From the IMG/VR virus record IMGVR_UViG_3300032050_000270, positions 1 through 42,613 of that record: DNA of 42,613 bases; one strand, given 5' to 3'. Positions 11,394 to 34,685 of this stretch are shown one piece after another. This stretch comes from a virus. The translations under genes were made by a program, and so were the position numbers. Positions within the stretch are counted from its first letter, which is position 1, and each line of letters starts with the position of its first letter. The notes under the pieces were generated by a model that saw nothing but the letters and a program-made list of their open reading frames with translations, was not told where the DNA came from and made no database searches.

Positions 11394-11831
11394 ATGCCTT
11401 ACAAGAACATTGAAATTAATCCTGTAAAATACACCGAAGATTTTACATATAAAACACAACAAATTTATAAAGGATTTAGTACTATAGATCCTAGTAATAA
11501 AAGTTCAAAGTTGTATGACTATGATTTAATTAAACAAGATATTTTAAATCATTTCAACACCCGTAGAGGTAGTAGAGTAATGAATCCGGAGTTTGGTTCT
11601 ATTATTCAAGAAATATTAATGGAACCATTGACTACAGAAAATCGTCAATTAATAGTTCAAGATATTACAAGAATTTGTAATTCTGATCCTAGAGTATATC
11701 CATTAGAAATTAACGTTAATGAATACGATCAAGGATATTTAATAGAACTAGTTTTAATGTTAAAAGATACAAACGAAACAAAAGTTTTAAAAATTGCTTT
11801 TGATCAAAAAATAGGTATACAACCTCTATAA
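11394..11831 (+). CDS. 25: Baseplate wedge subunit gp25
   Basis: This 145-residue protein belongs to the GPW/gp25 family, whose members form the conserved core of contractile-tail sheath initiators; T4 gp25 is 132 residues. The diagnostic segment is the central one: YDLIKQDILNHFNTRRGSRV, then MNPEFGSIIQEILMEPLTTENR, which I cite as NPEFGS and ILMEPLT, followed by a NDP-type DPRVYPLEINV. Gp25 binds the sheath and the gp6 dimer in the baseplate, and gp6 is the next gene here. The gene follows the needle gene by ten bases and an ATAAATA late-type box lies in that gap. Identification is firm. Confidence 0.92.
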   Translation: MPYKNIEINPVKYTEDFTYKTQQIYKGFSTIDPSNKSSKLYDYDLIKQDILNHFNTRRGSRVMNPEFGSIIQEILMEPLTTENRQLIVQDITRICNSDPRVYPLEINVNEYDQGYLIELVLMLKDTNETKVLKIAFDQKIGIQPL

Positions 11832-11864: not shown

Positions 11865-14800
11865 ATGATACCAGCAACAAACAACAAAATAATTGTAGGC
11901 GAAGATTGGAAAAAAGTCTATCAATCTTTTAAAAATGCCGATTTTAAAAGCTACGATTTTGATACAATTAGACGCACTATGATTCAGTATCTTCAGGAAA
12001 ATTATCCTGAAGATTTTAATGATTTTATTGATTCAAGCGAATACATTGCTCTAATAGATATAATTGCTTATCTTGGGCAAAATTTAAGTTTTAGAATTGA
12101 TTTAAACGCAAGAGAAAACTTTTTAGAAACTGCACAACGACGCGATAGTATCTTACGATTAGCTCAATTAGTTAGTTATACTCCTACAAGAAATGTCCCT
12201 TCAAACGGATTATTAAAAATTACAGCAATATCAACAACTGATTCTGTGTTTGATTCTAACGGGACAAACTTAGCAAATACAACTATAGCATGGAATGATT
12301 TTACAAATCCTGATTGGTATCAACAATTTATTAATATTTTAAATTCGTCAATGTCGAGCAATTTCGGTACTCCTGTAGATAGAAATACAATTGACGGTGT
12401 GTTAACTGAACAATATGCTATTAACAGCTCGAATGTAGATACTCCAATTTATTCATTTACAAAATCTATCAATGGCGTTTCGATGCCCTTTGAAATTGTT
12501 CCCTGTTCCATTACAGGTAAAGATTCTATTTACGAAACTACTCCTAAACCAGCTGCACCTTTTTCTTTCCTTTATAGAAACGATAATCAAGGATCAGCTA
12601 GTGCTAACTCGGGATTTTTTATTCATTTTAGGCAAGGTACATTAGCAGTTTCTCAATTTAATATTGAAAATCCTGTACCAAATGAAATTATTGGAATTAA
12701 CGCCCCTAACATTAATAATAGTGATATTTGGTTATGGCAATTAGATAAGGATGGTAATTTTTCTACCCTATGGACATTAGTTCAATCTATAGCTTATAAT
12801 GATAATAATATAATCTATAATAGTGTTAATAAAGGCATAAGAACAATCTTTGCAGTATCAACAAGAGATGAAGATCAAATTGATTTAAATTTCACTGACG
12901 GTGTATTTGGCGATCTTCCTAAAGGTGAATTTAGATTATTTTATAGACAAAGCAATGCACAAACATATGTAATCAAACCTGAAAACATGAGTGGTGTATT
13001 GATTACAATTCCTTATATAAATGCACTAGGACAAGAACATTCATTACAAATTACTTTAAGTTTACAATATTCTGTAAGAAATAGTTCTGGTCCAGAATCA
13101 AATGCAAGTATACAACTTAAGGCTCCTCAAAATTATTACATTCAAAATAGAATGATAACTGGAGAAGACTACAACATAGGGCCACTAACTGCTAGTACAG
13201 ATGTTGTAAAAGTTAAAAGTATAAACAGAATTTCAAGTGGATTAAGTCGTTATTTTGACATATCAGATGTTAGTGGCAAGTATAGTAGTACTAATATCTT
13301 TGCATCAGATGGTATGCTATATCAAGATGAAAAAGAACAATATTTAGAATTTGAATTTAATTCTAGAAATCAAATTTTGCCTATCATAAAAAATGAACTT
13401 GCATCTATTATAGCTAGCAGTTCTTTAAAATCTTTTTATATGGATAAATTTTCTAGGATAGGTATTTCCGATCTAAATTTATCTTGGACAGAAATTAATA
13501 AAACTCCGGGACAAAGTAGAGGATATTTAACTTCACAAAATTCTCCTGTATCTGTAGGTGATTACACAGGTAACAATTTAAAATATTTTAAACCAGGAGC
13601 ATTGGTAAAATTTCAAGCACCGTATGGAAAATATCTTGATTCAAAGAATAATTTAAAATCAATTCCTACATCAGGAATTCCTACAGGCGGAAAAATGTAT
13701 GTATGGGCAAATGTTGCACAGGTAGTTGAAGACGGATCAAATAACGGTGCAGGAACATTAAGCGACGGAACAGGGCCAATTATTTTATCTATACGAGTTC
13801 CTACTGGCACAATACCAACTGAAATAATTCCTAAATATGTTTTTATTTTGCCTTTCTCGATAGAAAATGAAATTGTAAATATTTGTCTTGCAAAAAGAAA
13901 CTTTGGTTTAACTATAGATAAAAATTCTAGAGCTTGGGATATAATTTTAAATTCAAATTTAAATTTAACTTCGAGCTTTAGTTTATATGATCAAGGAAAC
14001 ACTGAAGATGCGGGGTTAGATTCAAGCTGGTTAATTGCATTTGTATGGGATGGAAAAAAATATAGAATTAGATATAGACTTTTAAATTATGTATTTGAAA
14101 GTCAAGCTGAAACAGCTTTCCATGTAGAAAAAAATTCTATTAACTATGATTTTTCTTCAAATTCTATTGTTAAAGATAAAATTGATGTATTATCAATAAA
14201 CTATAATTCAACGTCAACAACATCAATTGGTTTAGATTATACATGGCAAGTTGATGGCGCAATTGTTGAAACTGACGGGTATATTCAACCAAATAAAGTT
14301 AATGTAAGCTTTTATGATTTTAATAATTCAGGACAAATTAATGATCCTGATTCATTTAATAATATTGTTCAACCTCTTACTATATCTACTAACGGTTATA
14401 GAGATAAATTTTTGTACTTTAAGAAACTATCCGACGGACTTAGATATGAATTAACATCTGATGAAATTACTGCGTATCCTTCAGAGGTTGAATTTTTTAC
14501 TAGTAATCCTAACCAGTCGTTAATTGTTGATAATTCTCTTTATTATTTTTATAATCCATCAATTAATGTAGTGAAATATTGGTCAACATTAACTAGTTCA
14601 TTAGTGTATACAGATCAGTATTTTGGAAAAACAGGAAGGTCAGATTTAAAATTTCATTATATCCATAATGCAACTTATGATAGACGTATCGATCCTAGTA
14701 AAACAAACATAATTGACGTATATATGTTAACCTTGTCGTATGATTTAGAATTTAGATCATGGCTATCTAATTCTACAGATACAAAACCTGTAGCACCAAC

Positions 14801-15281
14801 TAGTCAAAATTTAGAAATTAACTACGGATCAAAACTAAATGAAATTAAAGCAATTAGTGATGAAATTATTTTTCATCCTGTAAAATATAAAGTTTTATTT
14901 GGCAACAAAGCAGATACTAATTTAAGAGCAACATTTAAAGCAGTTAGAAATTCAAATAATGTATCAAGTGATAGTAATTTAAGATCTCGAATACTAGTTG
15001 CTATCGAAGAATTTTTTGCATTAGAAAATTGGGATTTTGGACAAAGTTTTTACTTCAGTGAACTAGCAACATATGTTATGAACAGCTTAACACCGGACAT
15101 AACAAATTTTGTTATTGTTCCTAAATCTGATGCAGGATTCGGCAGTTTCTATGAAATAGCAAGTCAATCAGATGAAATTTTTATAAATGGAACTACAGTA
15201 GAAGATATAGAAATTGTTGATGCTATTACAGCAACACAATTAAAAACAACAAGCACTATTATTACATCTAGCGGAACATAA
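11865..15281 (+). CDS. 6: Baseplate wedge subunit gp6 (baseplate J-like)
   Basis: This 1138-residue protein is about twice the length of T4 gp6 (660), which forms the dimeric ring around the hub. The N-terminus is typical of marine gp6 proteins: FKSYDFDTIRRTMIQYLQEN, then NDFIDSSEYIALIDIIAYLG, then SFRIDLNARENFLETAQRRD and LVSYTPTRNVPSNG. This is the helical core-bundle region of the gpJ/gp6 family. The middle (about 430-470) has MITGEDYNIGP with TDVVKVKSINRISSG, the domain common to gpJ-like proteins. The C-terminal part after about 600 is long and rich in beta-strand patterns. It starts without a visible Shine-Dalgarno site and ends two bases before the giant gene, so the two are surely co-transcribed. 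Firm for the family. Confidence 0.88.
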   Translation: MIPATNNKIIVGEDWKKVYQSFKNADFKSYDFDTIRRTMIQYLQENYPEDFNDFIDSSEYIALIDIIAYLGQNLSFRIDLNARENFLETAQRRDSILRLAQLVSYTPTRNVPSNGLLKITAISTTDSVFDSNGTNLANTTIAWNDFTNPDWYQQFINILNSSMSSNFGTPVDRNTIDGVLTEQYAINSSNVDTPIYSFTKSINGVSMPFEIVPCSITGKDSIYETTPKPAAPFSFLYRNDNQGSASANSGFFIHFRQGTLAVSQFNIENPVPNEIIGINAPNINNSDIWLWQLDKDGNFSTLWTLVQSIAYNDNNIIYNSVNKGIRTIFAVSTRDEDQIDLNFTDGVFGDLPKGEFRLFYRQSNAQTYVIKPENMSGVLITIPYINALGQEHSLQITLSLQYSVRNSSGPESNASIQLKAPQNYYIQNRMITGEDYNIGPLTASTDVVKVKSINRISSGLSRYFDISDVSGKYSSTNIFASDGMLYQDEKEQYLEFEFNSRNQILPIIKNELASIIASSSLKSFYMDKFSRIGISDLNLSWTEINKTPGQSRGYLTSQNSPVSVGDYTGNNLKYFKPGALVKFQAPYGKYLDSKNNLKSIPTSGIPTGGKMYVWANVAQVVEDGSNNGAGTLSDGTGPIILSIRVPTGTIPTEIIPKYVFILPFSIENEIVNICLAKRNFGLTIDKNSRAWDIILNSNLNLTSSFSLYDQGNTEDAGLDSSWLIAFVWDGKKYRIRYRLLNYVFESQAETAFHVEKNSINYDFSSNSIVKDKIDVLSINYNSTSTTSIGLDYTWQVDGAIVETDGYIQPNKVNVSFYDFNNSGQINDPDSFNNIVQPLTISTNGYRDKFLYFKKLSDGLRYELTSDEITAYPSEVEFFTSNPNQSLIVDNSLYYFYNPSINVVKYWSTLTSSLVYTDQYFGKTGRSDLKFHYIHNATYDRRIDPSKTNIIDVYMLTLSYDLEFRSWLSNSTDTKPVAPTSQNLEINYGSKLNEIKAISDEIIFHPVKYKVLFGNKADTNLRATFKAVRNSNNVSSDSNLRSRILVAIEEFFALENWDFGQSFYFSELATYVMNSLTPDITNFVIVPKSDAGFGSFYEIASQSDEIFINGTTVEDIEIVDAITATQLKTTSTIITSSGT

Positions 15282-15283
15282 AA

Positions 15284-18200
15284 ATGGCAGGCAATAAAAA
15301 ATCAGTTAATCTATTACCTGAAAATTTAAGGACTACAAAAAATACTAAATTTTTATCTAGTACTATTGATCCTTTAATTAATTCACCTGAATTAGAAAGA
15401 ATTGACGGATATATAGGTTCTAAATTAACTCCGAACTATAATCCTAATACTGATTTTTATTTAAGGACAACGTCTTCCCTAAGAAAAAATTATTCATTAG
15501 AACCTGCATTAATCTTTAAAAACAATGTTAATGAAATTAATGATATTGTTGCCTACGATGATTTAATAAATGAATTAACAAATCAAGGAGTAGATACTAG
15601 TAATCTAAATAATTTATTTCAATCGAGATATTATTCATTTGATCCTTTTATTGATTGGGATAAATTTGTTAATTTTTCATGCTACTATTGGTTACCTTTC
15701 GGCCCTCCTTCTATATTAATTACTGAAGCTGCATTTGATGTAGAAACAGAAATTTTAGAAAATACAGAATACCTTATGCCGAACGGTTACAATTTAAGTA
15801 ACGGCATGAAGATTAAATTCTTAGATGATGTTGTTCCTTCATCTTATGCAAATAAAGAATTTATAGTAGAAGGTGTAGGAAGTTCTATTAAATTAATTGA
15901 TTTTAGTTTATTAGAAGGAAATCAAAACTTATCTGTTTTATATAATGAAACTTTTGATAAAGATAATTTTGATAATTATCCATTTGACGGCGATTCAAAA
16001 ATACCTCTTACTCCTGAATACATAACTATCAATAGAGCTAGCATTGATTTAAATTCTTGGTCTAGATATAATCGTTGGTTCCATAAAGATGTTATAGAAA
16101 AGTCTTGTATTATTAACAATATACCAGTTAATCTTGATTTTAAATCAAAAGCAGTTCGACCTATTATAGAATTTAAACCAAATTTACAACTTTATAATTT
16201 TGGTCGTAAAGGTATACAAAATATTGATTTGTTTGATACTACTACTAAAAATGCTTTTAGTACAGTTGATGGATCGTACGGCTATTACGTAGATGGCATT
16301 ATGCTAGAACCAGGGCATAGAGTAATTTTTAATGCCGACCTTGATTCAACTGTTAAAGGTAAAATATATCAAGTCGAATTAGATACTTCCGGTGATGTTC
16401 CTAAAATTACACTAGTACCAGCCCCAGATTCTACTCCGAACAATTTAGATTCATTATCTATAAATTATGGAAATACATGTGCCGGAAAATCTTTCTACTA
16501 CAATTCTACTATGGGAGAATGGATATTAGCCCAACAACATACATATCTAAATCAAGCCCCATTATTTGATTTATTTGATAAGGACGGTACAAGTTTTACA
16601 GGCTTAGATGAAAAAAATAATTTTAATGGAAGTAAAATTTTTGGTTATGCAACAGGTACAGTATTAGACCCTATTTTAGGATTTAAAATAAAACAAGAAA
16701 ATAGTGTAGGTATAGGTAGCTATTCTTTTAAAAACTATTTTACTACAGAAACTATTTCTAAAAGTATAGATGGTGTTGGATCTAATATATCAACTGGTGT
16801 TACATTTGCTAGATTAAATTACGAAGACGGATCTAGTATATTGTTAAATGTGTGGAGTAATTCAGGAGAACTATTTCAATTACCTATAATTGAAAATCAA
16901 GTAATCACTGATACTTCTACAACAGTTACGATAAAATCTATTGATAATCCTGTATTTTCATCTGCAAATGTATTTGTTAACAATGTTAAGAAAGAAGTAA
17001 CATTTACAACAGGTAGTAATGTATTATCATTTGTTGAAAATGTATCGTTAAATCCAAATGATGTTGTTACTATTAAAATAACAACTGATGAGATTCCTAA
17101 CGAAAATGGTTACTATCAGACAGCATTAAGTTTAACAAATAATCCATTAAATGGACCTATTGCTGATTTAACTTTTAGCGAGTTAACTGATCACTTAAGC
17201 ACAATGGTTGAAAAAATTCCTAATTTCACAGGAGCATTTCCTGGAAATAGTAATTTAAGAGATATTAGCGATTATGGAAAATATGGTACACGTTTAATTA
17301 TAAATGACAATCCTATTGCATTTGTAGATTTCTTTTTAGGAAAAAAATCTCATAATGTAATTGATGCATTAAGATCTATAGCAAATCATTATAATCAATT
17401 TAAAATGAATTTATTAAAATTTGCTGTAGATGTAACAGAACAATTAACTCCTGCAGATGCATTAGAAGAAATTTTAAAATCGATTAATAAAGATAAAACT
17501 ATAAATTCTCCTTATTATAGATCTGATATGATCGGATATGGAGTTAATAAAACTGTTAGAAATATTACTGTTGTTGATTCAAGTGAAACAGAATATTTTA
17601 TAGGAACAGAGTTTGAATTAACTAAACTTAGTTTTCAGTCTGTATTAATTTATTTAAATGACGAATTGTTAACAGTTGGAGTAGATTATTCGTTTAATAA
17701 TCTTGATCAAACTGTTATTATTTCTAAAGCATTAAATGAAAATGATATAATTTCAGTTGTTAATTATAAAGATACATTAGGTTGTTTTGTTCCGCCTACC
17801 CCTACAAAGCTAGGATTATATCCTAAGTTTGTCCCTGAAATATATTCAGACACTTCTTATGTATCTGGTCCTGTGAATATGATTCGAGGGCACGATGGTA
17901 GTTTAATTAAAGCATATAATGATTATAGAGATGATATTATTTTAGAATTTGAAAAACGTATTTTTAATAATATAAAAGTATCTTACTCTGGAATTTTTGA
18001 TGTTAAAGAAACCGAGATAAGTGCATTTAGAACAAATAATTTTGAAGATGATATAAACAAAATTCTTGAAAAAGATTTTATTTCTTGGGCAGGTAGATTT
18101 GATATAGACTATTCTAAAAATTCTACATTTGATGAAACAAATCAATATACATGGAACTTTATTGGATCAATAGACAAACTGTTTGGTGAACCAGTTTCTG

Positions 18201-21200
18201 GTACATGGAAAAGTGTATTTAAAAAGTTTTATGACACAGAAGCTCCGCACTTACGTCCGTGGGAAATGTTAGGATTTAGTATAGAACCAGACTGGTGGGT
18301 AGATGAATACGGATCAGCTCCTTACACTGCTACAAATACAGCACTATGGGAAGATTTAAGAGATGGATTAGTTAGAGATCCTGTTGCCCCATATATTTTA
18401 AGTCAATATCAAAGACCGGGATTATTAAGTATTATTCCAGTTGACAATTCAGGACAATTAAAAAATTTAACAGATTTCTTAGTAACAGACAATACCTATT
18501 ACGATAAAAGTCAGTCATGGAAATTTGGAGATTTTTCTCCTGCTGAAACAGCATGGCGTAAAAGTAGTTTCTATCCTTACTTCTTAAATATTGCCGCAGC
18601 ATTGACTAGACCTTGTGATTACTTTTCTTTAATGTATGATACAAGTAGAATAGAATTAAATCTTTTAGGTCAAGTTATATATAACACAGATAATTTGTTT
18701 TTAGATATAAGAAAATTAGTTATTGATAACGAATTACAAACAGCCGGATTTAGTGTATTAGTTTGTGAAAATGGAAAACAAAAATATCAAAATTATTTAG
18801 ATATATTAACACAAGATTTACAATTTGCTAATTTTAATTTATTTCATAAATTGGGTGGATTTACTAGTAAAGAAAAATTACAAATTAATATAGATTCTAT
18901 AGATCCTGTATCAAGAAGTCCGGGTGTTATATTACCGCCCGAAGATTATACTTTATTACTAAACGTAAGCAATCCAGTTAAACAGATCGGTATTTCGGGT
19001 ATTATTGTTCAAAAATCTGATGGTAAATTTACAATTAGAGGATATGATAGATATAGACCTTATTTTAATGTATTAACTCCTAATAAATCTGCAACTTCAG
19101 GTGCATTAGTTGTTGGCGGAGTTTCGGAAGAGTTTTCTGAATGGAGCGGAGCAACTGACAGCGCTAGTAAAAATGTAAGTTCTATTGATCTAACTACAGC
19201 CAATTCAGTTACTACAAGGTATTATAAACAAGGCCAAATTGTTAGATATAATAATGTGTACTATAGAGTTAAAGTAAGTCATACCGCACAAAGTACATTT
19301 AATCCAATATTATTCCAACAATTGCCATCATTACCTATTAAAGGTGGTGCTTCTGCACAATTACCAGTAAGCTATTCTAGAGATGTTACTTTAATACCTT
19401 ACGGTACAGAATTTGATTCTATTCAAGATGTCTTTGACGTTATAATGGGTTACGGTGCATGGCTTGAAAATCAAGGGTTTGTTTTTGACTTTTTTAATAA
19501 TGATTTAAATGAAGTTATAAATTGGAAATTTTCAGCTAAAGAATTTTTATATTGGACCACTCAAAATTGGTCAAATAATGATCTAATAACTCTAAGTCCT
19601 TTTTCTGAATATTTAAAATTTGAATCTACAGATTCTGTTGTTGATAATATTATCAGTAACGACTATGATTACAGTTTATTACAAGCAGATGGTAGATTAT
19701 ATCCGATCGATAAATTTAATTTTTCTCGTGAAGACGGTTTCTGTACGATTGCTACGTTAGATGACAATGAAGGATTATTCTTTGCTTTATTAAGAACTGT
19801 GCAAAAAGAGCATGGATTAGTTTTCAATAATTCTACAATATTCAACGATACTATATATGATATAGATACTGGATATAAACAACAAAGAATGAAATTTTCT
19901 GGATTCAGAACAAAAAATTGGAACGGAGATTTTATTAGTCCAGGGTTTGTTTATAACTCTGTTTCCATATTAGATTGGCACCCTTTTAAAACTTATAACC
20001 CCGGTGAAATAGTAAGATATAAGAGTTTATATTATCAGGCTATAGGAAAAATTGAAAGCTCAAATAATTTTAGTTTCGACCAATGGACGAAATTAGATAG
20101 TAAACCATATTCAAAACTAATTCCTAATTTTGATTATAAAATTAGTCAATTTGAAGATTTTTATAGTTTAGATGTTGATAATTTTGATTATGAGCAACAA
20201 CAATTAGCACAACATTTAGTAGGATATACACCTAGAACATATTTGAATAACATATTTTCTAATCCTATTGCTCAATATAAATTTTATCAAGGTTTCATTA
20301 AAGAAAAAGGAACTAAGAAAGCAATCGACAAACTGTCAAAAGTAAATTTCTATAACCGTCAAGGATCTATAGAAATTAATGAAGAATGGGCTTTTAGAAT
20401 TGGAAGTTATGGTTCATATTCGTCATACAATGAAATAGAATTTTCATTAGATGAAGGGATAGGGCTAGAAAATCCATACATTACAAAATTTGTTGACAAT
20501 GTAGCGAATAACAATGATCCTTCAATAAATTACATTACATCAAATTCATTATTAATATCGCCCGATAATTATTCACCTAGTAATACTTTTAAAGCATACG
20601 AAGGGACATTTGACGACACTAATTTCGAATTAATGACAGCAGGTTATGTAAGATCAGATGATGTGTCGGTAACTGCTTATAATAAAAATAGTTTATTGGA
20701 TATTGCAAATAATTCTTTAATCAATAATAAAGATACAGTATGGTTAGGATTTTTAGAAAATGGCGGTTGGGATGTTTATAGATATTCTAAACAATCTGCT
20801 AAAATTTCTGGAGTATATGTAAGTTCACCTGGTATAGATATTACATTTGTAACTGACATGCCTCACGGATTAAGCACAGGTGATGTAGTATCGGTAGCAA
20901 GATTTAATAATCAAGTTAACGGTGTTTATGTTGTTAAAAATGTTTCTAAATTAAATCAATTTACAGTAGAATCAACATTATCGACTATTCTTAACGAAGA
21001 ATTGTTATCATTAGGAATTTTATTTAAATTTGAATCTGCTCGTGTCGATACTGTTGACAACATAGCATCAAAAATAAACTTAATTGATCTTCAATCAGGA
21101 GACAAAATTTGGGTAGATAGAGATTTAGATGATAAATGGAAAGTTTATCAAAAAATTGATAACTATTCATCGAAAGATTATAACACACTTGACTTCTATG

Positions 21201-24200
21201 GTGATCAATTTTTTGGTTTTAAAATTCATGCATCAGAAAATTCTTCAATAGTTGTTATTTCATCACCCGGTAAAAAGGAACCTGGCGATTATAGTTATGG
21301 AAGAATAACGGTATTCCGAAAAATTAATAACGTTCTTGAACGTCAATATGAATACGGTTTGAATACAGCTACTTCAATTTATTGTGATCCTGATTCTTTA
21401 ACAAATTTTGGATATTCTATCGCTCACGACGAGAATAAAAAATTGTTTGTAGTTGGCGCCCCGACAGCAAGTAAAATTAGAGCAAGTTTGACAGTAGGTA
21501 CGGTATTGTTAAGCACTGGTACAGGTACAATTAAAACTTTCAACAATGAAGGTATAGTTAAAGTAAGCTCTAAAAATATTCTTATAAATCAAGATGAAAC
21601 GCAGTTTGTATTGGTTCATCCTAACGCAATTGCTCCTAACACCGCAGAAAATGCTAGATTCGGCCATTCAGTTTACGTTAATCAACCTAGCATTAACACT
21701 GCTACTACTTTACTTGTAAGTGCTCCGGGAAATGATGATTATTCTGCTCCGGGATCTGTTTTTGCCTATTGGATTAATACTGTAACAGATACAATATCCG
21801 GAGTCACTACAGCAACAGTTAGTGCTAATCCTTATAAATTTGTTGTTAGCAGCACATCGTCGATTAGCTTAAATGCTGGTAGTCAATGGGGACACAAAAT
21901 TGCAGGCGATAGAAGCGGAGAACATATTGCTATAAGTGCACCGCAGTATGCATTTACGGACTCTGATAGAGTAGGTATAGTTCAAATTTTTGATAAAAAT
22001 TTAACATGGAAACAAAACATATCATTACCAGTTAATTCATATGAATCATTTGGACATGATATTACTATCAGCGATGACGGGTCTTTGATGTTAATTTCTT
22101 CAGTTGAATATATAACATCAAAAGGAGCAAAAGGTGCAGTATTCCTATACAAATTATCATCTAGTGGAATTTATGAGTTGGCTCAAACTTTAGAAAATCC
22201 AATCTTAGATTCCGGATTAAAATTTGGATACAGTTTATCTGTTTCTAATAATAACTCAACAATTGCTATTTCGTTATTAGGCACAACTAAAACAAAAGTA
22301 ATGAGATTTTTTGAAGATTTAGAAAACTCAGATAACGAAACAACATTTGACAGTAAATCTACTAGATTTGTATCAACTGTTCCTGATTCTGGCACAGTAT
22401 ACCTTTACGATAAAATTGGTAATAATTATGTACTTGCTACAGAATTAAACAATGTTGATATTTTAGAAGGTAGCAAATATGGAATTTCTACAGTAGCAAC
22501 TAACAATACAATTTTTGTTGGTGCACCAATGTATTCAGGAAATATTGTAAATCTCAATAAAGTACCTGACAATTCGAAAGTATATCAATTTAATAAAATT
22601 GACAGTACCAATAATGGATTTAAATTATTAAGAGAGCAAATTCCTACTATACAAGTTGAAAATATCAAGAGAATAGCCTTAATAGATTCTCTAAAAGAAG
22701 AAATTATTGATTATCTCGATGTTATCGATCCTTTAAAAGGAAAAATATCAGGTCTTGCAGATCAGGAACTAAAATATAAATTAGCATTAGATCCTGCTAT
22801 CTATTCGTTAGGAACCCCTTTAACTGTAGTTGATACAAATACTGCTTGGATTGACGACCACGTAGGAGAACTATGGTGGGATCTAAGTACAGCTAAATTC
22901 ATTTGGTATGAACAAGGCGATGACTTATATAGAAAAAATAATTGGGGTAAATTATTTCCTGGTTCTAGTATAGATGTTTATGAATGGGTTAAATCTGATC
23001 TTTTACCGAGCGAGTGGGCATCTAAAGCAGATACAAACGACGGGTTAATAAAAGGTATTAGTGGACAACCAAAACATCCAGATAATACTGTTTTAACTAT
23101 AAAACAAGTTTACAATAACATTACTAACTCTTTAGAAAATGTTTATTACTATTGGGTCAAAAATAAAACAATAATACCTAATAGTAAGAATCGTAGAATA
23201 AGTTCTTATCAAGTTGCGTCTTTAATTGCTGACCCAATTGCTGAAGGTATAAAATTTGCCGAAATCCTATCTGCAGATTCAATTGCATTAGCTAATATAC
23301 AATCGTCTTTAATTAGCAATAGAATAAGTGCTAATGTTGTAATTGATAATTTAAATAATAGTATACCACATCACACAGAATGGGTATTGTTACAAGAAGG
23401 TAATAAGAATGATGTACCAAATACACTATTAGAAAAGAAACTAATAGACAGTTTGTTAGGTAGGGATTCATTCGGAAATACTGTACCAGATCAATCATTA
23501 TCATATAGAAATAGATACGGTTTAAGTATTAGACCTCAACAAACATTGTTTAAAGACAGAATAGAAGCTCTACGTAATATAATAGAATTTTCTAATAAAG
23601 TATTGTTAGAAAATAGAATTACAGATAATTATAATTTTACTAATTTAAACAAGAAAGAAGAAATTCCTGATGTTTTATCTAGAGAATATGATTTAGTTGT
23701 TGATACTAATACAGAATTATCTGCAATAGACACTACTAATTATAAACAAGCTAAATTAGAATCTGTTTCTGTAAATGGCTATGTACGTGTTGTGAATATT
23801 ATAGATCCTGGATTTGGTTATACAAATCCTCCTAAGGTAACAATTGTTTCTGAATCAGGAGCTGATTCAGAAATAGAAGTACAAATTGATAATTTTGGAA
23901 GTGTTATATCTGCAACTATTAAAAATGCAGGTTATGGATATGTTGACTCTCCGATTTTAGTAGTAAGACCTCATACAGTTATTATTACTACAGATTTAAC
24001 AGCGGGTAATAGATGGACCAAAAATGAATTTAATTATAATTTTGTTTCTATTGATACAAGATGGATTAAATCTAAAACACAAAGCTATAATACCACTTTA
24101 TATTGGGATTATGTAGATTGGCAAAGTCCTGAATTTAATCAATACAAAAATATAACATATTCAACAAATGACATCTTAGAAGCTATAGCTATTAGTGGTA

Positions 24201-27200
24201 TCAATCCTAACGAATATGTTAAAGTTAAAAATAGCGGTAATGGATATTTTATTATCCTAGAAAAAGTAAGTGATGGACAAACAGGAAACTTTACCGCTGA
24301 ATATAATATTGTATATAGTGAAAAAGGTACAATACAAATAAATGATAAAATATGGAATTATAATATTGGAAAATATTCATATGACCTTTTAACATTAGAT
24401 GAAACATTGTACGATCAAATACCTGATCAAGAAATTAACTATATATTATTGGCATTAAAAGAAGATATATTTGTTGGCACATTAAAAGTAAATTGGAATT
24501 TATTATTCTTTAAAGCAGTAAAATATGCGATGTCCGAACAAAAATTACTTGACTGGGCATTCAAAACATCTTTCATAACAGTTAAAAATATAATTGGAAA
24601 TTTAGATCAAAGGCCAGTTTATAAGTTAGATAGCTATCAATATTTTGAACAATATATTAAAGAAGTTAAACCTTATCATACAAAAATAAGAGATTATCTA
24701 GCTGCATTCCAAACAATTGAACAGGCAAATACACAAGTAACTGATTTTGATTTACCTGCTTATTATGAAAATGGCGAATACAAAACTATAAACATAACAA
24801 CGGATATTCCAAAATCGATATTTACAATTACTAACGAATTAACAAATGTTTACCCTTGGAAATCTTGGGCAGATTATTATACCTATGAAGTAAAAGAAGT
24901 ATGGGTTGCGGAACAAGGTAGAGGATATACTGATATACCTAACATTACAATAAGTGGTCCTAATACAGAAAATGGAACTACTGCAACAGCAGTTGCCTAT
25001 CTAAGAAATGGAGGCATTTATCAAATAGTTGTAACAAATCCAGGATCAGGATATGTATCTCAACCTTTAGTGACAATCACAGGCGGTGGCACCGGTGTAA
25101 CAAATACTGCAACAGCATCTGCTATATTGTCAAATAACACAATTAGAAAAAATATACTAGGTATAAAATTTGATAGAATTAGTGTAGACAACGAAATATC
25201 AAATGAAACAATCATTGATACATTTACATGTGATGGCACAACTACTGACTTTACTTTATCTTGGTTGCCAGAATATAAGAAAGAAAATATTGTTCCTAAA
25301 TTAGATGGAAAATTGGTTTTTGCAACAGACTATACATTAATTTTTAGAGGCAAAAGAAATAAAGCTTGTATTTTTAAATTTTTAAATTATGTTCCAAAAC
25401 AGGACCAAATTTTAAAAATATCTTATGTTAAAAATATAGAATTGTTCAATGCGGTAGAAAGAATAAATTATTATTATCAGCCGACTGAAACAATGCCTAA
25501 CGAAATTTCTTCGTTAATGACTGGTGTTACATATGGAAACAATATTCTTCAGGGATTGCCTTTTGGTTATGCTGTACCTTGGAATACGTTTAATAATTTA
25601 TATGGAAATTTTGTATGGGATGAATTAATCCAACAATATGCATTTTCTAAGGTTATTACTACTGCACCAGTAGGAACAAATACTCTTTATTTGAGTACAG
25701 TTACAGATATTGTTCCTGGTCAGGTTCTAAATATTTTAAGTTCCTCTACTAATTTTATTAGAACTGATACTGTAGTTGTATCAGTTTCGTCTGCAACTAA
25801 CTCGATTGTAATTAGTAATCCGTCTTATAATATTTTAACTGCTCGATCAACAGGAACAAATGTCGGAGCAGATATTATTGTAAGAACAACAATACCATTT
25901 AATGGTAATTTGTACGTTGGTGATATTGTAACTTTATCTGGCATAACACCGGCTGGATTTAATGGACAATATCTAATTAATAGAATTGACAGTAATGATA
26001 CATTTATTGTTACCGCATCGTCCGTTTTATCAACCTCTACAGTTGTGGCATTAGCATCGGCTAATGCTAAAGTTTCGAGTATTATTACTACTATAGAGCA
26101 AACATCTGTATTAATTAATAGAGTTGTTACAACAGTAACAAATACTAGTACAGCAATTATTCAAACATTAACTAGAGAAAGCAATATTTCTCGTTATGAT
26201 GTTAAAGTTAATTCATCGACAATTACAGCAAACTCGGCAACTTCGCCGTATTATGTGTTATCCACAGATACAAATAATAGAGCAATAATAACTGTTAATG
26301 TATTATCTGCACCGACTAGTACAATAGATATTCAGCTATTTACAGATCCAAAAATAGAATTTTGGAAAACAAATAAGTTACCGCATATTGTTGATACTGT
26401 GTTAACAGGTGGTTCTTGGTCCGGTACAAATTTCACAGGAGCGTTCGGAGTTAATCCTGATATTGTAAACGGTGAACAATTCTTAAGTGTTAATAATAAT
26501 TTCGGGCCCGAAGAATTAGTACCGGGACATACTTTAGATAGTATAGGTATAAATGTTTATACAAAAGATAAAACTACTTCTCCTGTTATAGTAACAGGTG
26601 CGTTCCCCTCTTCAACAAACACAATCTATACTCATACATTAACTGTTGACCCTGATCCATCACCGTTTGGATTAATGGTTTACTCAGGAGACAGAATATT
26701 TAATAGAGTCGACAATGAAACTTTCACAGATACAAATCAATATTTTATTGAAGGTTCTAATATTAAAATTCCACCTCAATTAGAATGGGCAAGAATTGGT
26801 TATACTGCAATGACTTTAGGTGGTGAAAACTTATTAGACAGTAGGATGATTTTTGTTGAAAATACTTCATCTACAATAGTTGAAAGTGCAGCTAGTATTA
26901 ACGACGTTAATATAGCCTATGTATTAGTTAATGGTGTTAGAATTAATGAAGTTACTACAACATCAAATTATGGATTCATGTTAACAAATGTTAGTAGCGA
27001 AAATAATAGAGCATGTGTAAAAATTTATAACATGTCTACAGGATCTAATAATATTCAAGCATGGTTCTTTAATTCTTTCTTTGATACATTTAGTACATTT
27101 AGTGAAGAATATTTTACAAATGTTAGCGCAGGATCATTAACATTATCTGTACCTCCTGCTAATATCAAACCTGAAAGTGCAAATGCAATTGTTGAAGTAA

Positions 27201-28630
27201 AAACATCAACAGATGATACAAGACGTAGATTATCACCGCCTTGGGTAAGTTACTATGTAATTCAAAATAATCAACTTACATTTAGTATTGATAGTAAGAA
27301 TAATAGACCTTCTGGTTATTATGCAGAAAACGAAGTTCGTGTATACGGAAACGGTACTGAATTACGCTTAAATTTTGATTATACTGTTAATACTGCAAAT
27401 TGTACAGTTACTATAACTAATCAATTATTGCAAAATGGTGATGCAGTTGCAGTTATGGGATTAAAAGATTACGACTATATCATTAATAATAATACATTAA
27501 CATTTAGCACGTCGTTAGTTAATGCTGATGTTAAAGTTATAACATTCACAGATCATGACGATTTATTAATGCATACAGAAAAATTTAATCCTAATGCAAT
27601 TAATCGTTATACATTAAGCAGACCTATTTTAAATGACAATTATGTTTGGGTATATAAAAATGGTATTCCATTAATACATAGACACGATTTTGAAATAATG
27701 TCTGACTTAAGAACAGTTCAATTTAATGAATGGATTGTTACAATTGATACTGATAAAATCTTAATTTCAACTTTTGCAGAACCTTCCATAAATGACGAAG
27801 TTTTAGGTTTTAGAGTGTTTAAGGATATTTTTGATAGATTATCTTATAGAAGATTATCAAAATATTATTCAACATTCCTAACAAAAGAATTAAAATCGTC
27901 GGATACAGAGATTCATGTCGATAATACAGATAGTTTAATTACGCCTGATCCAAGATTAAACAATCCAGGAGTTGTTATTATTGACGGCGAAAGAATAGAG
28001 TTTTTTGAAAAATCAGGAAATATTTTACGTCAATTACGTAGAAGTACATTAGGTACAGGACCTGCAAAAGTTTCTCAACCCGGTACTACGGTAATTGATC
28101 AAAGTATGCATGAAACAATTCCTTATGTTGAAAATACCTACGTTCAAACAATTCCGTCATCAAATACTAATACATATGTAATTAGTACAGCGACTTCTAT
28201 ATTAACTGGTGATGGTATTATTTTAACAAATGGAGTTTCTGCGGTAGATCAAATCCAAGTGTATTATGGTGGTCGTCAATTACGTAAAACACCTTTAGTT
28301 GTACATGATTTAACAGTATCATACAACCATACACCTGCAAGTTTGAAAACGCTTCCTCCGGAATTTATAGTAAATACATCAACGCAAGAAATTATTTTAA
28401 GCTTACAGCAGTCAATAACAACTGGTACAGATATAACAATTGTTCAAAAGAAAGGATCTATATGGACAGGTACTGAATCCTTATTAACAAGTCCAGTAGT
28501 ACAAGCTGAATTCTTAAGATACAAGAATGCATCTTTACCTGATGTTTATTATTATGGTGGAAACAAATATATGTTAGATAGTTCTTATTATACAATTGAT
28601 GATGAAAATGGTTCATCATTAGAGGAATAA
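15284..28630 (+). CDS. Giant 4448-residue virion structural protein at the gp7/gp8 wedge position
   Basis: The frame is unbroken over 13.3 kb and holds about a third of the window. It starts two bases after gp6, where T4 has gp7 (1032 residues) and then gp8, neither of which is otherwise seen. The N-terminus (NLLPENLRTTKNTKFLSSTIDPLINSPEL, cited by its NLLPENLRTTKNTKF part) resembles large structural proteins of marine T4-like phages from memory. Visible modules: two CBM5/12-like sugar-binding motifs (about 1310-1350 and 1566-1602), a probable seven-bladed FG-GAP-type beta-propeller (about 1970-2440), paired GxGYxxxPxVTI strands (about 2841-2893 and 3213-3271), and at least seven copies of a small VxVYxNGxxL module. 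No enzyme motif or signal peptide was seen. A gp7-like scaffold fused to receptor-binding modules is plausible but unproven. Confidence 0.8.
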   Translation: MAGNKKSVNLLPENLRTTKNTKFLSSTIDPLINSPELERIDGYIGSKLTPNYNPNTDFYLRTTSSLRKNYSLEPALIFKNNVNEINDIVAYDDLINELTNQGVDTSNLNNLFQSRYYSFDPFIDWDKFVNFSCYYWLPFGPPSILITEAAFDVETEILENTEYLMPNGYNLSNGMKIKFLDDVVPSSYANKEFIVEGVGSSIKLIDFSLLEGNQNLSVLYNETFDKDNFDNYPFDGDSKIPLTPEYITINRASIDLNSWSRYNRWFHKDVIEKSCIINNIPVNLDFKSKAVRPIIEFKPNLQLYNFGRKGIQNIDLFDTTTKNAFSTVDGSYGYYVDGIMLEPGHRVIFNADLDSTVKGKIYQVELDTSGDVPKITLVPAPDSTPNNLDSLSINYGNTCAGKSFYYNSTMGEWILAQQHTYLNQAPLFDLFDKDGTSFTGLDEKNNFNGSKIFGYATGTVLDPILGFKIKQENSVGIGSYSFKNYFTTETISKSIDGVGSNISTGVTFARLNYEDGSSILLNVWSNSGELFQLPIIENQVITDTSTTVTIKSIDNPVFSSANVFVNNVKKEVTFTTGSNVLSFVENVSLNPNDVVTIKITTDEIPNENGYYQTALSLTNNPLNGPIADLTFSELTDHLSTMVEKIPNFTGAFPGNSNLRDISDYGKYGTRLIINDNPIAFVDFFLGKKSHNVIDALRSIANHYNQFKMNLLKFAVDVTEQLTPADALEEILKSINKDKTINSPYYRSDMIGYGVNKTVRNITVVDSSETEYFIGTEFELTKLSFQSVLIYLNDELLTVGVDYSFNNLDQTVIISKALNENDIISVVNYKDTLGCFVPPTPTKLGLYPKFVPEIYSDTSYVSGPVNMIRGHDGSLIKAYNDYRDDIILEFEKRIFNNIKVSYSGIFDVKETEISAFRTNNFEDDINKILEKDFISWAGRFDIDYSKNSTFDETNQYTWNFIGSIDKLFGEPVSGTWKSVFKKFYDTEAPHLRPWEMLGFSIEPDWWVDEYGSAPYTATNTALWEDLRDGLVRDPVAPYILSQYQRPGLLSIIPVDNSGQLKNLTDFLVTDNTYYDKSQSWKFGDFSPAETAWRKSSFYPYFLNIAAALTRPCDYFSLMYDTSRIELNLLGQVIYNTDNLFLDIRKLVIDNELQTAGFSVLVCENGKQKYQNYLDILTQDLQFANFNLFHKLGGFTSKEKLQINIDSIDPVSRSPGVILPPEDYTLLLNVSNPVKQIGISGIIVQKSDGKFTIRGYDRYRPYFNVLTPNKSATSGALVVGGVSEEFSEWSGATDSASKNVSSIDLTTANSVTTRYYKQGQIVRYNNVYYRVKVSHTAQSTFNPILFQQLPSLPIKGGASAQLPVSYSRDVTLIPYGTEFDSIQDVFDVIMGYGAWLENQGFVFDFFNNDLNEVINWKFSAKEFLYWTTQNWSNNDLITLSPFSEYLKFESTDSVVDNIISNDYDYSLLQADGRLYPIDKFNFSREDGFCTIATLDDNEGLFFALLRTVQKEHGLVFNNSTIFNDTIYDIDTGYKQQRMKFSGFRTKNWNGDFISPGFVYNSVSILDWHPFKTYNPGEIVRYKSLYYQAIGKIESSNNFSFDQWTKLDSKPYSKLIPNFDYKISQFEDFYSLDVDNFDYEQQQLAQHLVGYTPRTYLNNIFSNPIAQYKFYQGFIKEKGTKKAIDKLSKVNFYNRQGSIEINEEWAFRIGSYGSYSSYNEIEFSLDEGIGLENPYITKFVDNVANNNDPSINYITSNSLLISPDNYSPSNTFKAYEGTFDDTNFELMTAGYVRSDDVSVTAYNKNSLLDIANNSLINNKDTVWLGFLENGGWDVYRYSKQSAKISGVYVSSPGIDITFVTDMPHGLSTGDVVSVARFNNQVNGVYVVKNVSKLNQFTVESTLSTILNEELLSLGILFKFESARVDTVDNIASKINLIDLQSGDKIWVDRDLDDKWKVYQKIDNYSSKDYNTLDFYGDQFFGFKIHASENSSIVVISSPGKKEPGDYSYGRITVFRKINNVLERQYEYGLNTATSIYCDPDSLTNFGYSIAHDENKKLFVVGAPTASKIRASLTVGTVLLSTGTGTIKTFNNEGIVKVSSKNILINQDETQFVLVHPNAIAPNTAENARFGHSVYVNQPSINTATTLLVSAPGNDDYSAPGSVFAYWINTVTDTISGVTTATVSANPYKFVVSSTSSISLNAGSQWGHKIAGDRSGEHIAISAPQYAFTDSDRVGIVQIFDKNLTWKQNISLPVNSYESFGHDITISDDGSLMLISSVEYITSKGAKGAVFLYKLSSSGIYELAQTLENPILDSGLKFGYSLSVSNNNSTIAISLLGTTKTKVMRFFEDLENSDNETTFDSKSTRFVSTVPDSGTVYLYDKIGNNYVLATELNNVDILEGSKYGISTVATNNTIFVGAPMYSGNIVNLNKVPDNSKVYQFNKIDSTNNGFKLLREQIPTIQVENIKRIALIDSLKEEIIDYLDVIDPLKGKISGLADQELKYKLALDPAIYSLGTPLTVVDTNTAWIDDHVGELWWDLSTAKFIWYEQGDDLYRKNNWGKLFPGSSIDVYEWVKSDLLPSEWASKADTNDGLIKGISGQPKHPDNTVLTIKQVYNNITNSLENVYYYWVKNKTIIPNSKNRRISSYQVASLIADPIAEGIKFAEILSADSIALANIQSSLISNRISANVVIDNLNNSIPHHTEWVLLQEGNKNDVPNTLLEKKLIDSLLGRDSFGNTVPDQSLSYRNRYGLSIRPQQTLFKDRIEALRNIIEFSNKVLLENRITDNYNFTNLNKKEEIPDVLSREYDLVVDTNTELSAIDTTNYKQAKLESVSVNGYVRVVNIIDPGFGYTNPPKVTIVSESGADSEIEVQIDNFGSVISATIKNAGYGYVDSPILVVRPHTVIITTDLTAGNRWTKNEFNYNFVSIDTRWIKSKTQSYNTTLYWDYVDWQSPEFNQYKNITYSTNDILEAIAISGINPNEYVKVKNSGNGYFIILEKVSDGQTGNFTAEYNIVYSEKGTIQINDKIWNYNIGKYSYDLLTLDETLYDQIPDQEINYILLALKEDIFVGTLKVNWNLLFFKAVKYAMSEQKLLDWAFKTSFITVKNIIGNLDQRPVYKLDSYQYFEQYIKEVKPYHTKIRDYLAAFQTIEQANTQVTDFDLPAYYENGEYKTINITTDIPKSIFTITNELTNVYPWKSWADYYTYEVKEVWVAEQGRGYTDIPNITISGPNTENGTTATAVAYLRNGGIYQIVVTNPGSGYVSQPLVTITGGGTGVTNTATASAILSNNTIRKNILGIKFDRISVDNEISNETIIDTFTCDGTTTDFTLSWLPEYKKENIVPKLDGKLVFATDYTLIFRGKRNKACIFKFLNYVPKQDQILKISYVKNIELFNAVERINYYYQPTETMPNEISSLMTGVTYGNNILQGLPFGYAVPWNTFNNLYGNFVWDELIQQYAFSKVITTAPVGTNTLYLSTVTDIVPGQVLNILSSSTNFIRTDTVVVSVSSATNSIVISNPSYNILTARSTGTNVGADIIVRTTIPFNGNLYVGDIVTLSGITPAGFNGQYLINRIDSNDTFIVTASSVLSTSTVVALASANAKVSSIITTIEQTSVLINRVVTTVTNTSTAIIQTLTRESNISRYDVKVNSSTITANSATSPYYVLSTDTNNRAIITVNVLSAPTSTIDIQLFTDPKIEFWKTNKLPHIVDTVLTGGSWSGTNFTGAFGVNPDIVNGEQFLSVNNNFGPEELVPGHTLDSIGINVYTKDKTTSPVIVTGAFPSSTNTIYTHTLTVDPDPSPFGLMVYSGDRIFNRVDNETFTDTNQYFIEGSNIKIPPQLEWARIGYTAMTLGGENLLDSRMIFVENTSSTIVESAASINDVNIAYVLVNGVRINEVTTTSNYGFMLTNVSSENNRACVKIYNMSTGSNNIQAWFFNSFFDTFSTFSEEYFTNVSAGSLTLSVPPANIKPESANAIVEVKTSTDDTRRRLSPPWVSYYVIQNNQLTFSIDSKNNRPSGYYAENEVRVYGNGTELRLNFDYTVNTANCTVTITNQLLQNGDAVAVMGLKDYDYIINNNTLTFSTSLVNADVKVITFTDHDDLLMHTEKFNPNAINRYTLSRPILNDNYVWVYKNGIPLIHRHDFEIMSDLRTVQFNEWIVTIDTDKILISTFAEPSINDEVLGFRVFKDIFDRLSYRRLSKYYSTFLTKELKSSDTEIHVDNTDSLITPDPRLNNPGVVIIDGERIEFFEKSGNILRQLRRSTLGTGPAKVSQPGTTVIDQSMHETIPYVENTYVQTIPSSNTNTYVISTATSILTGDGIILTNGVSAVDQIQVYYGGRQLRKTPLVVHDLTVSYNHTPASLKTLPPEFIVNTSTQEIILSLQQSITTGTDITIVQKKGSIWTGTESLLTSPVVQAEFLRYKNASLPDVYYYGGNKYMLDSSYYTIDDENGSSLEE

Positions 28631-28633
28631 AAT

Positions 28634-29326
28634 ATGTCAAAAGTAACCCAACTTCCTTTTATATCTACAGTAAACACAACAACTGGGTTTGTTATCACTG
28701 ATAATGAATTAGTTCGAAGAGTCTCTTATGATGTTTTAAAAAATGATATTGCAAGTGCAGTAGAAGTAATAGCGTCATCGGGTCCAACGGGTCCTACTGG
28801 TCCAACGGGTCCTACTGGTCCAACGGGTCCTACTGGAACAGGAGTTCCTGTCGGTGGAACATCTGGGCAAGCATTGGTAAAATTATCCGGTACAAACTAT
28901 GACACTGGATGGGCTACAATTTCTGGAGGTGGTGGCGGCCCGGGATTAAATTCGAGAGAAAGTGTAGCAGTAACAACATTATCTATTGCAAATAATGCAA
29001 CTGCAAATTTAACTTTTACAGGGCATAAGGGTTATGTTCTTTATAGTATTGCAGCATCGCATTCTGCGTTTGTTACAGTGTATTCTGATATACTAAGTAG
29101 AACAAATGATGCATTAAGAACAGAAATAACTGATCCTTTACCCGGAGCAGGTGTTGTTGCAGAAATTATTACATCGGGTAATCAAACAATAAAATTAACA
29201 CCGGCTGTAGTTGGATTTAACAATGAAACTGTTCCTACAACGGATATCCCAGTCAGAGTTAAAAATCTTAGTGGAGCATCTGCTGCTATAACAGTAACTT
29301 TAACATTGTTAGGAATAGAACAATAA
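28634..29326 (+). CDS. Short tail-fibre protein with collagen-like repeat
   Basis: This 230-residue protein has a 48-residue N-terminal part with LVRRVSYDVLKNDIASAV, likely for attachment. Six Gly-Pro-Thr triplets at about residues 50-67 end in GTG. After a Gly-rich hinge (GGGGGPG), the C-terminal domain (about 100-230) contains GYVLYSIAASHSAFVTVYSD, DPLPGAGVVAEII and GFNNETVPTTDIPVRVKN. That beta-sandwich pattern is frequent in structural proteins of cyanophages, from memory. Gly-X-Y runs form trimeric collagen-like stalks in phage fibres. The ATG follows a GAGGA site and lies three bases past the giant gene's stop. The gene ends overlapping the subtilase-like gene. Function as a trimeric fibre is inferred. 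Confidence 0.75.
   Translation: MSKVTQLPFISTVNTTTGFVITDNELVRRVSYDVLKNDIASAVEVIASSGPTGPTGPTGPTGPTGPTGTGVPVGGTSGQALVKLSGTNYDTGWATISGGGGGPGLNSRESVAVTTLSIANNATANLTFTGHKGYVLYSIAASHSAFVTVYSDILSRTNDALRTEITDPLPGAGVVAEIITSGNQTIKLTPAVVGFNNETVPTTDIPVRVKNLSGASAAITVTLTLLGIEQ
28781..28834 (+). repeat. Three perfect 18-bp tandem repeats coding Gly-Pro-Thr
   Basis: The unit GGTCCAACGGGTCCTACT occurs three times without a mismatch, at 28781-28798, 28799-28816 and 28817-28834. Each unit codes two Gly-Pro-Thr triplets with different codon choices, so identity between units is at DNA level. The array probably changes length by slippage or recombination without shifting the frame. It is also far more GC-rich than its surroundings. 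Confidence 0.95.
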
Positions 29327-31185
29327 TGAAACAAATATGTACAGTGTTATTGCACGAAGGCACAGATCAAGATAACTTTCTTAATGAAGTTATGGATGAT
29401 CATTGTCATTGTTTAAACGAATGTGAACATATTCCAGATGTAGTAGTACTGTCTGTTAATCAAACAGAAATAGAAGCAATAAAAAATCATTCTTCTGTAA
29501 AAGAGTTAATAGTAGAGCCTCAAGCTCATCCTGCGGATTTACCTCCCTTTTTTTCCAAGACTAGAACGTTTACAACAGAATTGCCCTCGGCATCGTTGGA
29601 TGTAAAAAATTTCGGGTCGTTGCAATTTTATTTTTTTAATGACCAAGTAAAATCAGCTCCGGGCGTTAAAGTAGGAGCGCATCAATGGCAAGGAAATCCT
29701 CAGCCAGTTAATGACACTAGCCCTTCAATTTTTGGTACTTATAAATCTTGTTGGACAGGAAAAAATGTTGATATTGTAACGTTAGAAGTATATTCAGAAG
29801 TTCTTTATAATAACATTCAAAATACTCATCCAGATTTTAAAAAATTAGATAATCCTTCTGAGTCTAAGTTTATTCCAACAAATTGGACAGGATTATTCAA
29901 TACTAAAAATACTTCTCAAACAACTACATCGGCGCTATTAACAAGTCATGCAATAGGGGTATTAAGTGCCGCATCCGGAGTCTATAGTGGATATGCTAAG
30001 AATGCTAGTATAAGAGTTATATATAATGATTTATTTGGTACAGTTGCTGCTATTAATAGTGTAATAGCATGGCATAATTCTAAACCGATTAATCCTGAAA
30101 CAGGAGTAAAAAATCCAACAATATTAATTTACGAATTTCAGTATTTTAAAAATTCTGTTTATTACAAAATTGATGATATTTTATCTTTAACTTATTATAA
30201 TAATTCTACAAAAAGTTTAGTAACAGTTAATCGACCGGGAACCAATTGGTTAAACAATTTTACACCTTTTATTGAAGCAAACTGTAATATTAAACGAGTT
30301 CAAGTAAACAATGTTTATCATTGGTGTGTGGGATTTACAGATTCTGATGAGTTTTCGGCTTTAAAAAATGCAATAAATGCTGCAACAAATGCCGGAATAA
30401 TTAATGTAGTTGTAGCAGGGAATCAAGGTGGAGTGTATGTTAAAAGAAGCGATACGAATCACACAGACGCTAAAATTACTGTAAAAGCTGGTGCAATTTC
30501 TTTTGTGGCTACTCCTGAATTATCAGGTACGACCTGGAGGTTTACAATGTCTACAAATCCTCCTACTAGTCTCGTAACAGAATTTCCAGTGTTGCAATCA
30601 TTTGGACCACATGGATCTGAAACTGGTATAGATATTGCTGCCGCACAAAATTCAGAAACATACCCAATATTAGATTATTATTCAAATAGAGGTCCGGGTA
30701 TAGATATAGCTGGTCTAGGAGCTCAAACTTTAACGGCTGCGCCTGAAATTCTTTATGCAGACGGCACATATTGGGGAATGTTCACTGGTACAAGTTGTGC
30801 AGCTCCAACAGTTGTAGGTGTTCTTGCTTGTATACTAGAAAAGTATTATTACTATTATGGAGTATGGCCGACTCCCGCTCAAGCAAAAGAGTTATTATTA
30901 TTAGAATCTAAAAAGAATGTGTTGTCAAATCCAACCTCAACAACATGGTCTTCTGTGCCAACTCCTTCTTCTGCTATTACAAGTAGTGAGATTATTTACG
31001 GTAAATTACCTCTTATGATAATTCAAAATAATACAGGAGTTAACGGGGGAGTAATTTTAAATGAATTAGTCGGAACGCCAAATCGACGAGCATTTTTAGA
31101 TAATAATATTGTTAAACACGGCTTGAATAGGACTAGTAGACCTATTTCTGGATTTGTATATCCAAGAAGTAAGATAAAACGGTAA
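29326..31185 (+). CDS. Subtilase-like (S8 peptidase fold) virion-region protein with Asp-to-Glu change
   Basis: This 619-residue protein has a subtilisin layout. Residues 1-70 resemble an I9-type propeptide (VVVLSVNQTEIEAIKNHSSV). The catalytic domain follows: GKNVDIVTLEV at 145-155 with HPDF at 168-171, TSHAIGVLSA with His208, VVVAGNQGG with oxyanion-hole Asn366, and FTGTSCAAPTVVGVLA with nucleophile Ser490. In active subtilases the first motif ends in an aspartate (DTG or DSG). Here the aligned residue appears to be Glu154, so activity may be reduced or lost. No secretion signal is visible. The position between a collagen-like fibre and further structural genes suggests a virion or fibre-processing role. 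Its start overlaps the previous stop by one base. Family firm, activity uncertain. Confidence 0.85.
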   Translation: MKQICTVLLHEGTDQDNFLNEVMDDHCHCLNECEHIPDVVVLSVNQTEIEAIKNHSSVKELIVEPQAHPADLPPFFSKTRTFTTELPSASLDVKNFGSLQFYFFNDQVKSAPGVKVGAHQWQGNPQPVNDTSPSIFGTYKSCWTGKNVDIVTLEVYSEVLYNNIQNTHPDFKKLDNPSESKFIPTNWTGLFNTKNTSQTTTSALLTSHAIGVLSAASGVYSGYAKNASIRVIYNDLFGTVAAINSVIAWHNSKPINPETGVKNPTILIYEFQYFKNSVYYKIDDILSLTYYNNSTKSLVTVNRPGTNWLNNFTPFIEANCNIKRVQVNNVYHWCVGFTDSDEFSALKNAINAATNAGIINVVVAGNQGGVYVKRSDTNHTDAKITVKAGAISFVATPELSGTTWRFTMSTNPPTSLVTEFPVLQSFGPHGSETGIDIAAAQNSETYPILDYYSNRGPGIDIAGLGAQTLTAAPEILYADGTYWGMFTGTSCAAPTVVGVLACILEKYYYYYGVWPTPAQAKELLLLESKKNVLSNPTSTTWSSVPTPSSAITSSEIIYGKLPLMIIQNNTGVNGGVILNELVGTPNRRAFLDNNIVKHGLNRTSRPISGFVYPRSKIKR

Positions 31186-33679: not shown

Positions 33680-33683
33680 ATCT

Positions 33684-34676: not shown

Positions 34677-34685
34677 GGATAAGTT

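Follow-up and report, generated by a model that had tools for sequence, protein, structure and literature searches.

The window analysed here, all 42,613 nucleotides of IMG/VR record IMGVR_UViG_3300032050_000270, carries its baseplate genes on the plus strand. A gp5-type hub protein with a C-terminal lytic domain (positions 9101-11383, assigned with PHROGs) is followed by a gp25-type sheath initiator (11394-11831; phrog_43, 2.5e-16) and by a gp6-type wedge protein of 1138 residues (11865-15281; phrog_10646, 2e-289). Directly after gp6 in this gp25-gp6 operon, the position of a gp7, lies a giant gene whose ATG at 15284 is separated by two bases from the end of gp6 at 15281. The frame runs to 28630 without an internal stop and encodes 4448 residues (~500 kDa, pI 4.8; PHROG 10938 family). 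The next gene (28634-29326) encodes a collagen-like protein, and between gp6 and 28634 there is no separate gene for any of gp7 to gp11. The uninterrupted 13.3-kb frame and the lack of separate gp7-gp11 genes between gp6 and the fibres, both described in an earlier note on this DNA, were thus borne out. At the 32% GC of the window, where the chance of a stop is 7.7% per codon, a random stop-free run of this length has a p of about 1e-156, and the frame is conserved in other contigs at 42-53% identity over the best segment; given this length and conservation, it is not a chance frame. There is likewise next to no prospect of an assembly artefact, an explanation already refuted by the intact frames in many contigs and in complete phage genomes.

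Homologues of the giant were found with tblastn in 87 phage records, all from T4-related jumbo phages. The carriers include the PA5oct group, the RaK2/121Q/PBECO4 group, Atu_ph07, Phosso, SCTP-2, GAP32, CBB and others, with XacN1 and RAS14 the most distant. An alignment-guided scan of IMG/VR matched at least 599 stretches, 595 of which were confirmed, and 80 IMG/VR loci were kept for inspection of synteny together with six close relatives. The order gp25-gp6-giant had no exception among the inspected relatives with enough upstream sequence, and the giant sits in the tail/baseplate operon of all relatives, in agreement with the proposal of the earlier note that it occupies the place of T4 gp7 and gp8. 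The 47 complete frames from the IMG/VR loci and close relatives encode 3716-5294 residues (median 4645); with the giants of XacN1 (3313 residues) and RAS14 (3138 residues), which lie in the same place, the family spans 3138-5294 residues. The window giant is nearest to the environmental contigs and ~28% identical to the copies in cultured phages, and the PHROG 10938 giants of RaK2-like phages, PA5oct, Atu_ph07 and SCTP-2 belong to the same family, with the same gene order and similar size. The giant is a hallmark of a large, barely described family of giant-genome phages.

PHROG 10938, which the giant matched with 1029 bits, is labelled 'virion structural protein' and filed under 'head and packaging'. 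This category looks wrong, because the gene context argues for the baseplate. The earlier note had reasoned that absence of the protein from virions would count against its reading; the PA5oct copy (gp355) carries an ESI-MS/MS identification mark in the PA5oct record, so that a relative of the giant is marked as found in the virion. In RsoM2USA, ORF361 (2541 residues) adjoins gp6 and is among ten predicted virion bands (PMC8504454).

Within the giant, conservation across the clade is concentrated in residues 1-200, ~820-1210, 1600-1760 and 2430-2800, and a weak trace of it persists near 3050; the ~1900 N-terminal residues as a whole are strongly conserved clade-wide, while a stretch at ~1850-2430 and the last third are variable. 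The N-terminal conserved region (residues 1-740; 15284-17503) was modelled by AlphaFold with a pLDDT of 87 and a pTM of 0.81. The model includes a small T7-fibre-N-like beta domain and has no global match in the PDB by Foldseek; residues 1-200 persist even in XacN1 and RAS14. The central conserved region (residues 720-1600; 17441-20083) is predicted to be alpha/beta, with a pLDDT mostly of 80-95 (81 overall for the model of residues 720-1909), and it too lacks a global PDB match. It contains a carbohydrate-binding module 5/12-like segment (chitin-binding type 3) at residues 1313-1338 (19220-19297), detected by Pfam, by PDB sequence comparison and by Foldseek, and a second such copy, located by eye, near residues 1563-1604. 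Next comes a module at residues 1600-1760 (20081-20563), kept in the most distant relatives, which is helical round a KG(T) motif; Lys1675 and Gly1676 are invariant in 67 sequences. A predicted beta-propeller of FG-GAP-type repeats (residues ~1950-2430; 21131-22573) varies in length and is short in 121Q-type phages. It is followed by a conserved region (residues 2430-2800; 22571-23683) that matches no known fold or family, by GxGY-type beta repeats (residues ~2810-2890; 23711-23953), with more of these near residues 3215-3265, and by a further conserved region (residues 3000-3180; 24281-24823) that has a KPYHTK motif at residue 3129 and is weakly seen in XacN1. The C-terminal third (residues 3190-4448; 24851-28627) is fast-evolving and has a small RGxxGT-type domain near residues 4200-4270.

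When the two models, of residues 1-740 and 720-1909, were compared with the PDB by Foldseek, only small modules matched, among them small beta domains resembling podovirus tail-fibre N-domains, and comparison with BFVD returned mostly the same family. As the CBM5/12, GxGY, fibre-N-like and RGxxGT modules occur in adhesins and fibres, it is a fair inference that the giant makes surface contact. The first three of these modules and the FG-GAP repeats would also suit a peripheral giant fibre or adhesin that merely follows gp6, some other unrecognised protein filling the role of gp7. The poor similarity of the giant to gp7 would fit such a protein, as would the 'putative fiber' annotation of Syn9 gp101, which occupies the same slot in a cyanophage. 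Fibres, however, are not conserved in this way over ~1900 N-terminal residues throughout a clade, the place beside gp6 is invariable, and seven complete genomes hold no other candidate with a gp7 core. We therefore consider a peripheral fibre rather unlikely.

The earlier note had also suggested that several baseplate proteins might be fused in the giant. The position, together with the disappearance of gp7 and gp8 as genes of their own, would agree with a polypeptide in which gp7, gp8 and perhaps gp9, gp10 and gp11 are joined, but profiles for gp8, gp9, gp10, gp11, gp6 and VrlC found nothing in the giant beyond a small GxGY repeat that is also present in cyanophage gp8. Apparent matches to gp8 (phrog_438 and the n10 segment) proved to stem from GxGY repeats that cyanophage gp8 carries as insertions, and a match to 'Head closure Hc2' (phrog_460) from the same repeat, which is also common to the Dpo31/Carin-1 tailspike (28lx/8ck1). 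The gp8 family PF09215 had no match in the giant, which shares only this repeat with cyanophage gp8, and none in the whole genomes of PA5oct, Atu_ph07, SCTP-2, 121Q and Phosso, while the T4, HTVC008M and Syn9 controls matched. No T4 baseplate protein was found by Foldseek with the models covering residues 1-1909. The gene that immediately follows the giant in two relatives (L046, 24722-26080; L054, 23280-24257) opens with the T4 gp9/gp10-type N-terminal domain (PF07880), and therefore at least that function stays separate. The collagen-like protein of the window is a homologue of the L054 gene, and in PA5oct the fibre gp358 has a Gp10_C domain; gp9/gp10-like parts thus occur downstream of the giant in the clade, though not recognisably in the window. 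The profile comparison and the whole-genome searches both speak against a fusion with gp8, gp9, gp10 or gp11, and a true fusion now appears highly improbable.

We then compared the giant with gp7 itself, using as template an 11-sequence gp7 core against 50 segments of the giant. The gp7 core of HTVC008M, with its internal insertion left out, served as a query for finding gp7 relatives, and an HTVC008M sequence spliced in the same way was a row of the broader gp7-core profile described below. The best of the 50 segments aligned exactly at the KG motif (residues 1671-1688), and the second best aligned residues 74-124 with the N-terminal portion of that core, so that the two are colinear in order. 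Column-shuffled decoys equalled the KG match in 2 of 100 cases and the match at residues 74-124 in 1 of 100. Single comparisons gave E values of 0.0065-0.046 and hhalign probabilities of 1-6%, which are below significance on their own. The KG(T) module also shows a weak, register-correct match to P2 gpI. Neither phrog_964 nor a broader gp7-core profile matched the giant, and T4 gp7 as a single-sequence query gave no match; the weak KG signal emerged only with the 11-sequence core.

The predicted structures did not strengthen this likeness. In the confident N-terminal model, residues 74-124 form a beta hairpin and short helices where gp7 has two long bundle helices, and the helix-turn-helix bundle of gp7 is absent from the giant N-terminus, the site of the profile match. 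A helical hairpin does occur at residues 692-736, and helices at residues 1617-1689, but neither has a fold match that would mark it as the gp7 bundle. The model of residues 720-1909 places the KG motif between two helices, at a local pLDDT of ~43-62, an arrangement that would be in line with the helix-rich sequence round the motif in gp7 and P2 gpI. With the models of residues 1-1909, in which the KG region has this low pLDDT, the best 50 Foldseek PDB matches included no gp7, gp6, gp17 or TssG fold. Overall, T4 gp7 (1032 residues) and gp8 (334 residues), which fill the same slot, have no significant sequence or fold match in the giant: gp7 is matched weakly at the KG motif and gp8 is not found. 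Kinship to gp7, as indicated by position, the invariant KG motif and two weak colinear profile matches, is suggestive only.

The earlier note had held that separate gp7 and gp8 genes elsewhere would tell against its reading; neither is detectable in five complete relatives, the genome of the window being itself incomplete. For gp7, phrog_964 had no match in the whole genomes of PA5oct, Atu_ph07, SCTP-2, 121Q and Phosso, and matched the T4 and Syn9 controls. The gp7-core profile gave nothing better than 0.03 in seven complete relatives, XacN1 and RAS14 included, against 1.7e-39 for T4, 1.3e-33 for HTVC008M and 2.4e-15 for Syn9. Given where it lies, how well it is conserved and that no other gp7 candidate was found, the giant most likely works in the place of gp7.

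In other T4-like phages the gp7-slot protein ranges from 498 residues (X1) to ~6395 residues. Giants are found in this slot in cyanophages, in which S-RIM8 gp7 (~6395 residues), Syn9 gp101 (6076 residues) and Syn1_094 (3274 residues) also lie directly after gp25-gp6. In both size and location, the window giant thus follows an arrangement already known from these phages. The other idea of the earlier note, a novel giant protein forming the outer baseplate, comes closer than a fusion, but the arrangement itself is not new, since giants in the gp7 slot had already been annotated. There is no detectable overall homology between the cyanophage giants and ours. Syn9 gp101 carries GxGY repeats as the window giant does, but differs from it in having a gp7 core that is clearly recognised, and gp8 remains a separate protein in cyanophages whereas none can be detected in the five complete jumbo-phage relatives. 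What sets this clade apart is that gp8 has been lost and that no gp7 core can be recognised, and in the open-access literature we found no paper describing this.

VrlC, a large protein of pelagimyophages and cyanophages, is said to substitute for a missing gp7 (PMC7029224). A VrlC/DUF4815 profile did not match the N-terminal body of the giant, and profile comparison ruled out homology to VrlC except for the small RGxxGT-type C-terminal domain, which is shared with Syn9 VrlC. The premise that pelagimyophages lack gp7 is itself doubtful, because HTVC008M I899_gp055 (L015, 33435-36485), which follows gp6, has a gp7 core. This protein is annotated 'head closure Hc2', a label that probably comes from its GxGY repeats.

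Taken as a whole, the evidence leads us to favour, with reasonable though not strong confidence, a reading in which the giant is the wedge-scaffold protein of a T4-related jumbo-phage clade, acting in the place and role of gp7, with gp8 dispensable. As to its make-up, it is best read as a counterpart of gp7 that is expanded by surface-binding modules; it is probably an outsized plate on which the tail docks and not a simple fusion of T4 parts. Such a protein would sit in the baseplate wedge beside gp6 and gp25, with the conserved helical module near the KG at residue 1675 joining the gp6 dimer in the core of the wedge. The remaining conserved regions may form a thick outer baseplate round the gp6 ring, in which six copies of the giant would amount to ~3 MDa. 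The small domains of chitin-binding-like, propeller and fibre-like type could touch the cell surface or its glycans, or hold the fibres encoded downstream. Host contact would then be relayed through the giant scaffold to gp6 and gp25, and sheath contraction would start. Alternatively, a single giant wedge protein, unrelated and structurally new, may have taken the place of both gp7 and gp8 throughout the clade; we hold this to be a minority possibility of some weight. Wedge scaffolds of the (gp6)2-gp7 type are well conserved in T4, the T6SS and other contractile systems (PMC10457771), and under such a replacement this supposedly universal scaffold would not be universal. The favoured reading, a giant acting as gp7, supplies a working identity for a protein that is among the largest uncharacterised structural proteins of jumbo phages and is currently classed with head proteins. 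The analysis also points to a clade where searches recover neither T4 gp7 nor T4 gp8, so that whether the wedge scaffold is universal among contractile machines can be tested directly on cultured phages such as PA5oct and 121Q.

The second gene downstream of the giant encodes a subtilase-type protease (Pfam S8), at 29326-31185 in the window, where PHROGs labels the product a tail fibre protein, and at 24383-26230 and 24262-25887 in two relatives (L009 and L054, respectively), the L054 copy having a pro-kumamolisin activation domain. A protease is unusual in a fibre operon. Its recurrence in these three loci raises the possibility that the giant is made as a precursor and cleaved during assembly, perhaps by this subtilase, to yield several wedge proteins; however, near the giant of PA5oct, of 121Q and of two further loci (L011 and L014) no subtilase is annotated or was found, yet the giant is kept, and we regard such processing as improbable.

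Further downstream, at 31901-35939, the window encodes three consecutive fibre-like proteins of 592, 330 and 417 residues. They have in common an N-terminal domain (GKNxxxYGxxxNxNFLKLLENF...PxxPIEGQLWYD), which is probably a shared docking domain; comparison of the gp9/gp10 N-terminal domain with these three proteins gave no match. On the minus strand, a putative MoxR-type AAA ATPase (39792-40874) is followed by a putative VWA-metallopeptidase-like protein (38456-39712), both read from sequence. In Atu_ph07 (L002, 34178-40339) and Phosso (L006, 32879-40003), radical SAM proteins are encoded in clusters downstream of the giant.
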